64,000 nucleotides of DNA from Carboxylicivirga linearis (lineage in GTDB: Bacteria > Bacteroidota > Bacteroidia > Bacteroidales > Marinilabiliaceae). The stretch is taken from positions 124,001 through 188,000 of the forward strand of contig NZ_JAGUCO010000002.1 in NCBI RefSeq assembly GCF_018271995.1, read 5' to 3'. Shown piece by piece: positions 24,302 through 26,798 of the stretch (within the stretch, counting starts at the first letter, position 1; each line of letters starts with the position of its first letter). A program made the translations under genes and the position numbers. The notes below the pieces were generated by a model, which was given only the letters and a program-made list of their open reading frames with translations, was not told where the DNA came from and searched no databases.

Positions 24302-25027
24302 TTAATTTTCTGCTAACAACTTTAATAATAACCCTAAAATGATAGTTATTGTAAAGCTTAAAAGGGTTCCTACCAGAATATATTCTGAAAATTGCCTTGA
24401 TTTGGTTTCCTCTTTAGGATTAAGTCTGAGAATTGATTTTGCGGCAATTAAAAAGCCTATAGCAGAATAAATATTAGATAAAATAAAGGTTAAAACCAGA
24501 ATGCGCTCAAGGTATCCAATCCATTTTCCGGCATTTGATAATCCTTCGGTTTCTGGATTTTTAGTCTCGAGTTGAGCACGCCATTTTGAAGTGAATTCTC
24601 TTATAAATATACCACATGGCCAGATAATAAATGCGTAGCCAAACAAGTAAATCCAGAATTTGTCTGCATTTGCCCAAATATCTGTCAAGTGAATATAATT
24701 CAATTCAGAAAACAGTAACAGCCAGATTATTATTAATGATATAATATGAAAAATCTGGTCTATAACAAATGTAGTTATAGTGCTTTTTCGGAAGTTTTTC
24801 CAAACATCAATTATAAGGTGAACAACAAAAATTAATGGAATTATCCACCACAAAAGCCATTGACCAATTAACATGTACGATAATACAGCTGTTAAAAATA
24901 TGTGGAGATAAAAATAAAAGGATTTCAAACCTTTTTCTTGCCTGTTTTTAACCCACGAATCTCTTTGAATTACGAAATCTCCGATAAAATGAGCAAGTAG
25001 CAGTTTAAACAATATAATGATATGCAT
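24302..25027 (-). CDS. DUF3307 membrane protein
   Basis: The 241-residue protein starts with KLLLAHFIGDFVIQRDSWVKN, the N-terminal signature of DUF3307, and contains six or seven hydrophobic segments, with the conserved HLIIDVWKN and FVIDQIFHIISL. Function is not known. It starts 4 bases after the SatD stop codon on the same strand, so the two are co-transcribed. DUF3307 and SatD are often adjacent in bacteria. Confidence 0.88.
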   Translation of the reverse strand: MHIIILFKLLLAHFIGDFVIQRDSWVKNRQEKGLKSFYFYLHIFLTAVLSYMLIGQWLLWWIIPLIFVVHLIIDVWKNFRKSTITTFVIDQIFHIISLIIIWLLLFSELNYIHLTDIWANADKFWIYLFGYAFIIWPCGIFIREFTSKWRAQLETKNPETEGLSNAGKWIGYLERILVLTFILSNIYSAIGFLIAAKSILRLNPKEETKSRQFSEYILVGTLLSFTITIILGLLLKLLAEN

Positions 25028-25031
25028 AAGT

Positions 25032-25724
25032 TCAGGTTAAATGTATTTGAGCAAGATACTCAAAATGTTTTAATAATAGGAGGATGGCATCCCAGTTGGC
25101 TGTTTGTTTGCGTTGGTTTACAGCTGATTGTGAAATGGATAGGATAGAGGCAATTTCAGTCTCTTTTCTGTTTTGTAATAAATAAAATACAACTTCGGCA
25201 GACTGGGGTGTCCACTTATCCATGATGGCATCTAAAAGCTTTAATTCAACTTCTAGTTCTTTATTTAGCTTCTCAATCTCTGTTGTGATAATGGTTTTTT
25301 GCGCTTTTCGCTTCATAGTATCTAGAGTTCTCCCTGATATTTGCAAAGCAGTACCATCTGATAATGAGAGCTTATCTTTTAAATACTCAATTTCACCAAT
25401 TCCTACAGATAACCTTATATCCAGGTTCTTATATGATCGTATGCTTTTCCTTGTAATATCGCTTCCACTCTTATCTTTTGTTTGTGAATCAGATGCCTGC
25501 ATTTTAAAGATGCTTTTAAATAAAAGAGTTATTTGCAGGGTTTTAATGGTTTTATTATGAACACATTGAAAGCTGTCTCCACGAACAAATTCGGGTTGAA
25601 AAACAAAGTTTACATTCTGACTTATTGTCATGAAACCTTTCTGAACTTCAGAGATAACTATATCTCTTTGTTCTTCATCAAGCTGTTTTGAGTTGATGAT
25701 ATCTCCAGTAATTGCAACGTACAT
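25032..25724 (-). CDS. SatD-family protein with C-terminal helix-turn-helix
   Basis: The 230-residue protein begins with MYVAITGDIINSKQL, the family signature of SatD, named from the Streptococcus mutans acid-tolerance locus. Its last 55 residues (IASILSISQSAVNQRKQTANWDAILLLL) form a helix-turn-helix of the Sigma-70 region 4 or LuxR type. It is the first gene of a two-gene operon with the DUF3307 protein. Three regularly spaced inverted repeats lie just upstream. Together with the HTH, this makes SatD a plausible autoregulator (inference). Confidence 0.85.
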   Translation of the reverse strand: MYVAITGDIINSKQLDEEQRDIVISEVQKGFMTISQNVNFVFQPEFVRGDSFQCVHNKTIKTLQITLLFKSIFKMQASDSQTKDKSGSDITRKSIRSYKNLDIRLSVGIGEIEYLKDKLSLSDGTALQISGRTLDTMKRKAQKTIITTEIEKLNKELEVELKLLDAIMDKWTPQSAEVVFYLLQNRKETEIASILSISQSAVNQRKQTANWDAILLLLKHFEYLAQIHLT

Positions 25725-25743: not shown

Positions 25744-25774
25744 CAAATATAGAATAAATATATAAGTATAACAA
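25744..25774 (-). promoter_or_regulatory. Promoter of satD
   Basis: Read on the minus strand, TTG (25774-25772), 20 bases, then TATATTTG (25751-25744) match the Bacteroidota promoter with ideal spacing, 20 bases before the satD ATG. The first operator copy (25761-25780) covers the -33 element. Confidence 0.6.
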
Positions 25775-25838
25775 CTTATAAAGGCAAAATATAAGCATAT
25801 AAACTTATAAAGTGATTATATAAGGCTAAATGCTTATA
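25761..25838. promoter_or_regulatory. Triple operator array, TATAAG-N8-CTTATA at 29-bp intervals
   Basis: Three perfect inverted repeats, each TATAAG, 8 bases, CTTATA, start at 25761, 25790 and 25819, exactly 29 bp apart. The 8-base centres differ (TATAACAA, CATATAAA, GCTAAATG), so only the half-sites are conserved. They lie between divergent satD and the mutarotase gene and overlap the satD promoter. Confidence 0.8.
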
Positions 25839-25913: not shown

Positions 25914-26798
25914 ATGCGACTTAAAGAACTAAACGAACAATACGGAATTGATGGGGCTTTGGAATTTCAGTCAGAGCAACATACTGAAATGGCATATATT
26001 AAAACAGCTTACTCAACAGCTAAAGTATCTATCTATGGTGCTCAGGTACTTAGTTTTATTCCTAAAGGAAAAGATGATTTGTTATTTGTAAGTAGTCAAT
26101 CAGTTTATAAGGAAGGTAAAGCGATCCGGGGTGGAATTCCGGTTTGTTGGCCTTGGTTCAATGCGCATCCAACAGATAGTACCAAGCCTTCCCATGGATT
26201 TGCACGTATTTCAAGATGGGAAGTGTTATCCACAAAGAAGGAAGGTGATGAAGTTGTTATTTCATTAGGATTAAAATCGGATGACAGAACTAAAGACTTC
26301 TTACCTTATGATTTTGAAGCCGTGCTTGAAGTGACTGTTGGCAAAAGGCTTAATGTAGAGTTAACTACAAAAAATGTGGATTCTAAACCTTTTGATGTGA
26401 GTGCAGCATTGCATACCTATTTTAATATATCTGATATTGCAACCGTTAAACTACGAGGGTTGCATAAAATGGCCTATAAAGATGATGTATTAGGAATTGA
26501 TGCATTACAAGAAGATGAAATGGTAACATTCTCCGGGCGCACCGATAGAAGATATAAAGAAACAGAAGCTGAAGTTTCAATTATTGATGCTAATAAAACC
26601 ATTAAAGTAGGAAAAAAAGGTAGTAAGATTACAGTAGTTTGGAATCCTGGTGCTGAATTAGCTTCTCAAATGGCTGATTTAGGTAAGGAAAATTATAAAA
26701 AGATGGTTTGTGTAGAATCTGCCAATAGCTTAAATGACACGATTACTATTCAACCCGGAACATCTCATTGTTTAGGAACAACAATTTATAGCGTGTAA
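25914..26798 (+). CDS. D-hexose-6-phosphate mutarotase (aldose 1-epimerase family, YeaD type)
   Basis: The 294-residue cytoplasmic protein has the YeaD-like stretches VSIYGAQVLSFIPKGKDDLLFVS, IRGGIPVCWPWFNAH, PSHGFARISRWEV and SAALHTYFNI, with the catalytic histidine and glutamate expected in HGFAR and VCVESAN. It interconverts alpha and beta anomers of hexose 6-phosphates. It is divergent from satD; the operator array lies 76-153 bases upstream of its start and could also affect it. Confidence 0.92.
   Translation: MRLKELNEQYGIDGALEFQSEQHTEMAYIKTAYSTAKVSIYGAQVLSFIPKGKDDLLFVSSQSVYKEGKAIRGGIPVCWPWFNAHPTDSTKPSHGFARISRWEVLSTKKEGDEVVISLGLKSDDRTKDFLPYDFEAVLEVTVGKRLNVELTTKNVDSKPFDVSAALHTYFNISDIATVKLRGLHKMAYKDDVLGIDALQEDEMVTFSGRTDRRYKETEAEVSIIDANKTIKVGKKGSKITVVWNPGAELASQMADLGKENYKKMVCVESANSLNDTITIQPGTSHCLGTTIYSV

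Follow-up and report, generated by a model that had tools for sequence, protein, structure and literature searches.

A class-wide array of palindromes at 28- or 29-bp period upstream of satD in Bacteroidia is a probable operator of SatD and recurs in phages

Three perfect palindromes, TATAAG-N8-CTTATA, lie in a row upstream of the satD gene in the window, the stretch of 64,000 nucleotides of Carboxylicivirga linearis DNA analysed here. They are probably the operator of SatD itself (we put the probability of this reading at about 0.83), on which SatD dimers would line up and repress the satD-DUF3307 operon by default. Autoregulation by SatD dimers aligned on the DNA is well supported by the comparisons described below, from which we infer both the binding and its sign. 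Beyond what had been proposed in the initial annotation of this DNA, the analysis revealed several classes of half-sites, a cyclase-like N-terminal domain of SatD and matching arrays in phages. The features of the locus are as follows.

24302 to 25027, minus strand: gene for a DUF3307 membrane protein, 4 bp after satD (Pfam DUF3307, PF11750, E=1e-22)
25032 to 25724, minus strand: satD, with a class III cyclase-like N-terminal domain and a C-terminal sigma-region-4-like helix-turn-helix (HTH), from Pfam SatD and PDB profile hits
25744 to 25751, minus strand: TATATTTG, the putative -7 element of satD, which fits the Bacteroidota promoter consensus TAnnTTTG
25761 to 25780, no strand: putative operator copy 1, TATAAG-N8-CTTATA, proximal to satD and overlapping the -33 region
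25772 to 25774, minus strand: TTG of the -33 region, within copy 1, 20 bp upstream of the -7 element
25790 to 25809, no strand: putative operator copy 2, TATAAG-N8-CTTATA, perfect match
25819 to 25838, no strand: putative operator copy 3, TATAAG-N8-CTTATA, perfect match
25914 to 26798, plus strand: divergent aldose-1-epimerase-like gene, sharing the intergenic region with the array

All three copies described in the initial annotation were found again at 25761, 25790 and 25819, and their 8-bp centres, held there to be unrelated, are indeed unlike each other. The distance from arm to arm is 14 bp and the step from copy to copy 29 bp. A scan of the window for exact three-copy inverted-repeat arrays, in which any 6-mer, arm spacings of 8-20 and periods of no more than 40 were allowed, returned the TATAAG array as the sole one. 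The 6.05-Mb genome (180 contigs) has the exact single palindrome at 5 places, of which this array accounts for 3, and the reversed control at 1 place. Degenerate single copies with up to 2 mismatches were not enriched in the window (8 versus 7.6 in shuffled sequences), so what stands out is the array, with its perfect and periodic copies. The two other perfect single palindromes of the genome (G000:C77:124764 and G000:C124:6191; loci L001, L005 and L162) are the same 20-mer; 26 bp are identical between them and the surrounding stretches are otherwise unlike. The C124 copy lies inside a small excisionase-like ORF, with two tyrosine-integrase-like ORFs nearby (genes assigned by eye).

Bacteroidota promoters carry the -7 element consensus TAnnTTTG. 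Provided that this consensus applies here, the proximal operator overlaps the satD promoter, since the TTG 20 bp upstream of TAnnTTTG sits in copy 1; the earlier claim that the first copy covers the -33 element thus agrees with the positions of both motifs. TAnnTTTG was found at or after the end of the array in 54 of 97 SatD loci versus 2 of 87 windows of equal size immediately upstream of it. The distance from the array to the start codon of satD is variable, with a median of 25 bp and quartiles of 11 and 42 bp, and in the case of ATCGT-type sites the block mostly ends approximately 6-11 bp before the start codon. These positions bear on the sign of the regulation. SatD might bind the array and activate the operon, or switch between activator and repressor depending on a ligand, and both the two upstream copies, which occupy positions where activators often bind, and the variable placement of the array relative to the start codon would suit such a role. 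We consider it unlikely, as the -33 element of the window promoter lies under the proximal copy and binding to the ATCGT-type arrays, so close to the start codon, should block transcription.

Both proteins of the operon belong to known families: the window SatD passes the Pfam cut-off of PF16264 (30.2 bits, cut-off 29) and the DUF3307 protein that of PF11750 (80.9 bits, cut-off 23). The Pfam SatD model matched 50 of the 67 members of our SatD alignment (A4) at E<=0.1, and a six-frame search of the C. linearis genome with the SatD family missed the window SatD. With a profile built from SatD neighbours, a DUF3307-like ORF was detected downstream of satD on the same strand at 109 of 117 loci. 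The window DUF3307 protein has many hydrophobic segments, and the His and Asp residues in or near them, conserved in 55 sequences, would suit a membrane hydrolase.

The N-terminal half of SatD shows a weak but consistent resemblance to class III nucleotidyl cyclases. In a PDB search with a profile of 67 SatDs, positions ~4-102 matched 3mr7 best (E=6e-5), with Ma1120 and other cyclase entries at 2e-4 to 4e-4, and the C-terminus matched HTH proteins such as the sigma factor FliA (1.6e-3); the designed repeat protein 8vd6 also matched the helix region (1.5e-4), ranking between the cyclase entries. Residues D8 and D50, presumably the two metal-binding aspartates of class III cyclases, are kept in 112 and 117 of 118 SatDs, respectively. 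Position 132, the presumed place of the arginine of the transition-state Asn/Arg motif, is R in 51 of the 118 proteins but E in 33, so many SatDs may be non-catalytic sensors. A nucleotide-sensing and partly non-catalytic N-terminal domain appears as likely as an enzyme. An AlphaFold2 model of two SatD-containing sequences had a mean pLDDT of 38.8 and was not usable for dimer geometry.

Judged by its distribution, the array is a class-wide feature belonging to SatD. SatD profile matches at E<=0.001, some of them weak and helix-only, were obtained in 69 of the 393 genomes searched from the order and in 56 of the 395 from the class. The searches of order, class and genus genomes gave 128 profile hits, of which one partial hit (L116) was dropped, and the 127 full-length proteins represent the 118 distinct ones used here; two truncated places (G152, G182) and the weak helix-only places were left out. 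When the 260 bp upstream of each gene were scanned for any arm spacing of 10-19 and any of the 14 periods from 22 to 35, an inverted-repeat array exceeding the 99th percentile of 590 shuffles made in 2-base blocks was present in 97 of the 118 regions, with a period of 28 in 49, of 29 in 48 and no other. Among non-redundant SatDs (<50% identity), 53 of 66 had an array (period 28 in 20, 29 in 33). The threshold was also passed by 7 of 149 upstream regions of other genes, taken from stretches of 19 SatD-bearing genomes; four of these seven likewise had period 28, but with an arm spacing of 11 and within two shared gaps. A cruder array finder placed 78 of the 118 regions above the best of 118 shuffles, with periods of 28 (45), 29 (32) and 36 (1). 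Identical 6-mer pairs in the pooled 300-bp upstream regions numbered 893 at lag 28 and 710 at lag 29, approximately 20 being expected, and 34 and 23 at lags 27 and 30; they were raised again at lags 56 and 58 (416 and 289), and inverted 6-mers in the same regions peaked at 14 (241 versus 22 expected). Most of the 97 arrays have three copies (65), the others four (15), two (9) or five (8). The comparison thus shows the array, its period, the pairing of operator and helix treated below, the linkage to the gene and the overlap with the putative promoter.

No array above the threshold was found within 260 bp at 21 of the 118 SatD loci, which counts against the SatD-operator model. Five of the 21 form an orphan subfamily (L046, L051, L092, L098, L115) that has neither DUF3307 nor an array above the threshold and carries a recognition helix of its own, QPAVNRRLKA. 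Outside the set, two Salinivibrio plasmids (L136, L137) carry repeats at a 28-bp lag upstream of a gammaproteobacterial satD-DUF3307 pair; this hints that the array geometry may reach beyond Bacteroidota, although two closely alike loci are insufficient for such a claim. No clear 28- or 29-bp repeat was detected upstream of satD on a Sphingomonas plasmid (0 and 1 six-mer pairs). On a Segatella copri plasmid (L135, 2128-2218), the SatD-DUF3307 pair is preceded by GCCATATTTTTCGATTAAG, repeated directly at steps of 41 and 31 bp, in place of the palindromic array.

The half-site is built on a common beginning, TAT, in 78 of 93 arrays (4 of the 97, with odd total length, were omitted), and the next three bases vary (AAG, CGG, CGT, AGG and others). 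The remaining 15 half-sites, which do not begin with TAT in the register used and were omitted from the triplet tests, count against the SatD-operator model. As judged from these alignments, the triplet is a feature that tracks the C-terminal recognition helix of SatD and not its N-terminal domain. The columns with the most mutual information on the triplet were residues 204, 201 and 206 (numbered as in the window SatD), the top three of 197 and all in the recognition helix. Residue 200 ranked seventh; N-terminal columns (20, 133, 72) came in between, a signal that shared ancestry would give. In partial Mantel tests, the operator was correlated with the helix (residues 198-210) given the N-terminus (0.23, 0 of 500 permutations) and not with the N-terminus given the helix (-0.04, 410 of 500 permutations). 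Helices of the NS..G type went with CGT in 10 of 10 cases, SA..Q with AAG in 9 of 10, ST..Q with CGG in 4 of 4 and S[SN]..E with CGG in 9 of 10, and many other combinations were seen once or twice.

The period follows the length of the HTH segment. SatDs with the longer segment had period 28 in 43 cases and 29 in 4, those with the shorter one 28 in 6 and 29 in 44 (Fisher 2.6e-16; 16/3/4/30 and 2.3e-7 in the non-redundant set, both values being uncorrected for descent). The 10 of 97 arrays that break this rule count against the SatD-operator model. At SatD loci, the AAG class always had period 29 (14/14) and the CGT class period 28 (12/12). That half-sites pair with recognition helices and periods with HTH segments indicates that SatD is the protein involved, as had been suggested from its C-terminal HTH; the coupling to the recognition helix in particular makes SatD, with high probability, the protein that binds the array.

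It is quite improbable that another DNA-binding protein reads the array and that satD is merely one of its targets. Such a reader would account for arrays in genomes in which SatD was not detected (G154, G305, G372), for those located away from satD (G178 and a prophage of the C. linearis genome) and for viral arrays in records with no detected SatD. It would hardly be expected, though, that the half-site of a foreign regulator changes with the recognition helix of SatD and not with the rest of the protein.

SatD as the binder of its own operator suggests the following mechanism. One SatD dimer would most likely bind each palindrome via the C-terminal HTH, with TAT as the common base-line of the half-site and the following three bases conferring specificity. 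Adjacent dimers would be kept in a fixed register, probably through contacts of their cyclase-like N-terminal domains, which would explain the strict 28- or 29-bp period and allow cooperative loading of the dimers as a short row. The 29-bp step had already been taken as a possible sign of a large or multimeric regulator, and the rigid period is in agreement with that. Autorepression would be the default outcome because the row overlaps the -33 region of the satD-DUF3307 promoter, and it might be relieved once the N-terminal domain binds a nucleotide.

Within the genus, satD was present in 3 of 14 genomes sampled, that of C. linearis included. Conservation of the motif in close relatives had been named as a check of the original proposal: both satD-bearing relatives retain the 29-bp TATAAG array with some mismatches, the remaining sequence of the gap being different, and arrays are kept at distant SatDs, too. 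The array also occupies the intergenic region common to satD and the divergent epimerase gene, so that it might serve that gene, or else work as RNA (hairpins, attenuation). We regard either as very improbable. Of the 11 satD-less genomes of the genus, 9 gave an epimerase relative, and the array was absent from the 400 bp before it in all 9. This control is weaker than it appears because these relatives are only 52-58% identical, versus 73% in the two satD-bearing genomes, and have other gene neighbours, for which reason they may represent a different locus. Distant SatD loci that have an array keep it with satD while the sequence farther upstream is unrelated. The epimerase gene is probably not the owner of the array. 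As for a role as RNA, the array lies upstream of the -7 element of satD and should be outside the satD transcript.

Arrays also occur away from satD. Among the 393 genomes of the order, 25 TATAAG pairs (up to 2 mismatches) were found in 16 genomes, and 1 pair in 1 genome with the reversed control. Nineteen of the pairs (12 genomes) lie within approximately 450 bp upstream of satD and 6 (5 genomes) elsewhere; SatD was not found in three of the array-bearing genomes (G154, G305, G372). The C. linearis genome has a second 29-bp TATAAG pair (G000:C101:44218-44266; L160:6219-6267), with one mismatch per copy, inside an apparent Mu-like prophage and immediately before a C5-cytosine DNA methyltransferase-like gene (both by eye). 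Its class and period equal those of the host's own SatD. In G372, in which no SatD was found, at least 5 palindromes with mixed TATAGG, TATCGG and TATAAG half-sites (L169, G372:C3:1079025) adjoin a gene for type I restriction specificity and an ORF resembling REP-type transposases (by eye).

In viral contigs, exact two-copy ATAAG arrays were found in 111 stretches at 29 bp, in 8 at 28 bp (4 of these in contigs that also have a 29-bp pair) and in 1 at 31 bp, and a scrambled half-site at 29 bp in none. ATCGT occurred in 60 stretches at 28 bp and in 2 at 29 bp, and ATCGG, a class with no spacing control of its own, in 26 at 28 bp. The viral arrays thus have the same period as the SatD class that they match, AAG being always at 29 and CGT at 28 at SatD loci. 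For the counts below, class A comprises the 111 ATAAG loci, class B 25 of the 26 ATCGG loci (L205 is also in A) and class C the 60 ATCGT loci; the control-pattern loci L315, L376, L377 and L418-L421 were left out. The profile detected no SatD in the 136 stretches of classes A and B or the 60 of class C, nor in 50 whole viral records (8-413 kb; 50 of the 111), an empty answer that alone proves little, and a search of viral contigs for close relatives of SatD found none. Exactly one TATAAG array place (up to 3 mismatches) was present in each of 49 whole records, some of which are fragments, as a single pair in 46 and a longer row in 3; the reversed control gave 0 of 49.

Many array-bearing viral contigs are genuine phages and not host contamination, since 15 of 20 long proteins from these loci matched PHROGs and include two portal proteins along with a tail sheath, a DNA polymerase and a ribonucleotide reductase. 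When three array-bearing loci were compared with named phages by megablast, two had no counterpart and the third aligned only in short segments, most of them tRNA genes; protein searches of named phages with SatD and DUF3307 found nothing. The phages are many, unlike each other in sequence and some of them large, and they carry mostly two palindromes in short non-coding gaps. By nucleotide similarity, the 111, 25 and 60 loci form 35, 13 and 5 clusters, of whose representatives 34/35, 11/13 and 5/5 have the array outside ORFs of at least 70 codons (9.6, 2.2 and 2.4 expected). TAnnTTTG stood beside the array in 9 of the 53 representatives (5.0 expected) versus 51 of 97 at satD; by class, the numbers were 5/35 in A (3.2 expected), 2/13 in B (0.7) and 2/5 in C (1.1). 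Phage arrays were accordingly rejected as promoter elements, the excess of TAnnTTTG being weak at most. The 136 arrays of classes A and B lie between codirectional (84), convergent (24) or divergent (11) genes, the rest having one flank only, and the 255 flanking ORFs fall into 158 clusters with no common neighbour gene seen. A methyltransferase gene adjoins the array in the C. linearis prophage (by eye) and in one viral locus (L296). A tRNA gene lay within 300 bp of 30 of 90 distinct class-A arrays (14.1 expected) and of 1 of 21 in class B, often at a distance of only 4-12 bp (e.g. L224, L228, L235, L253, L257).

The single array place per viral record is also what a centromere-like or membrane-tethering site would look like, with SatD binding the array, DUF3307 anchoring it and autoregulation as a by-product. 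In some partition systems the site overlaps their own promoter and autoregulation occurs; here, too, a periodic array stands at the operon's own promoter, the partner is a membrane protein and the pair is found on plasmids. The satD-DUF3307 pair, however, comes with no motor NTPase gene, its distribution is patchy (69 of the 393 genomes from the order had at least one hit, some helix-only), and SatD was not found in the 50 array-bearing viral records searched. There is only a small chance that this is the primary function.

The phage arrays are an unexpected finding, independent of the evidence at satD. They look like sites kept to catch a host protein because they are single, regulator-less, outside genes, mostly devoid of the promoter motif seen at satD and of the host period. 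We tentatively read them as decoy operators for host SatD, a reading to which we give slightly less than even odds. During infection, multiplying phage arrays would capture SatD. More speculatively, SatD parked on its array might be silent and DNA-free SatD the active, phage-harming form, which could pass a nucleotide-linked signal on to DUF3307 in the membrane; phages that destroy the host chromosome or replace it would then supply a substitute parking site. The remaining possibilities are that SatD controls an adjacent phage gene, that the phage array is a tethering site, or that it is read by a phage-encoded protein missed by the SatD profile. The phage arrays suggest a role for satD-DUF3307 in phage infection, which they turn into a directly testable infection question, and if the decoy reading is true, the pair would be a phage-host conflict module countered by DNA mimicry.

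An ordinary defence role is disfavoured, since SatD loci were no richer in PADLOC matches than controls: 130 ORFs near 19 SatD loci matched 71 families and 128 ORFs of 19 control stretches matched 84 (E<=1e-10; the first 25 of the 71 and the first 25 of the 84 families are listed). One of 20 SatD loci had been dropped because satD was not recognised, and a 20th control stretch did not exist. PADLOC models gave no convincing hit to the two window proteins or to the Sphingomonas plasmid pair (best E=0.011). The patchy distribution and one plasmid context count for a defence role. On the Sphingomonas insulae plasmid (L417, NZ_CP048421.1:62000-84000), the satD-DUF3307 pair has a Pycsar effector and cyclase on one side and TIR, helicase and AAA genes on the other, an ImmA/IrrE gene being near, too.

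SatD and DUF3307 are hardly mentioned in the searchable literature. The Streptococcus mutans sat operon, presumably the source of the SatD name, is touched on there. No operator for SatD/DUF3307 was described in the literature covered, which excluded preprints and most subscription journals, and the same sources, with few subscription papers, contained nothing describing such an array among decoy operators, cyclase-HTH regulators or motifs of this kind. The array offers a handle for assaying SatD by footprinting or reporter fusions, the sequence code relates residues of the helix to the operator triplet, and through the strict 28/29-bp rule a change in HTH length is connected with operator geometry.

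Several known systems are related to the one described here. Class III nucleotidyl cyclases (Ma1120, PDB 3mr7) share with SatD the N-terminal similarity and the two presumed metal aspartates, from which SatD differs by its variable position 132 and the attached HTH. Pycsar consists of a cyclase and a membrane effector, and satD-DUF3307 similarly combines a cyclase-like protein with a membrane partner, both systems lying side by side on the Sphingomonas plasmid; in contrast to Pycsar, it had no convincing PADLOC hit and no excess of defence genes near SatD in Bacteroidia. Autoregulated arrays of operators or iterons are known from plasmid par and rep loci and multi-operator repressors. The SatD array resembles them in that sites recur in fixed register over the promoter of the regulator itself and differs in the inverted half-sites, the exact 28- or 29-bp period throughout the class and the swappable specificity triplet. 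Finally, pseudo-ToxI is a phage RNA mimic of a host system and, like the phage arrays, a nucleic-acid copy of the host's controlling repeats carried by a phage. The phage arrays, of which the ATAAG and ATCGT classes are controlled for spacing and the ATCGG class is a third with no such control, would differ in being DNA operators and, if the decoy reading holds, would represent the DNA counterpart of known RNA mimics of host systems.
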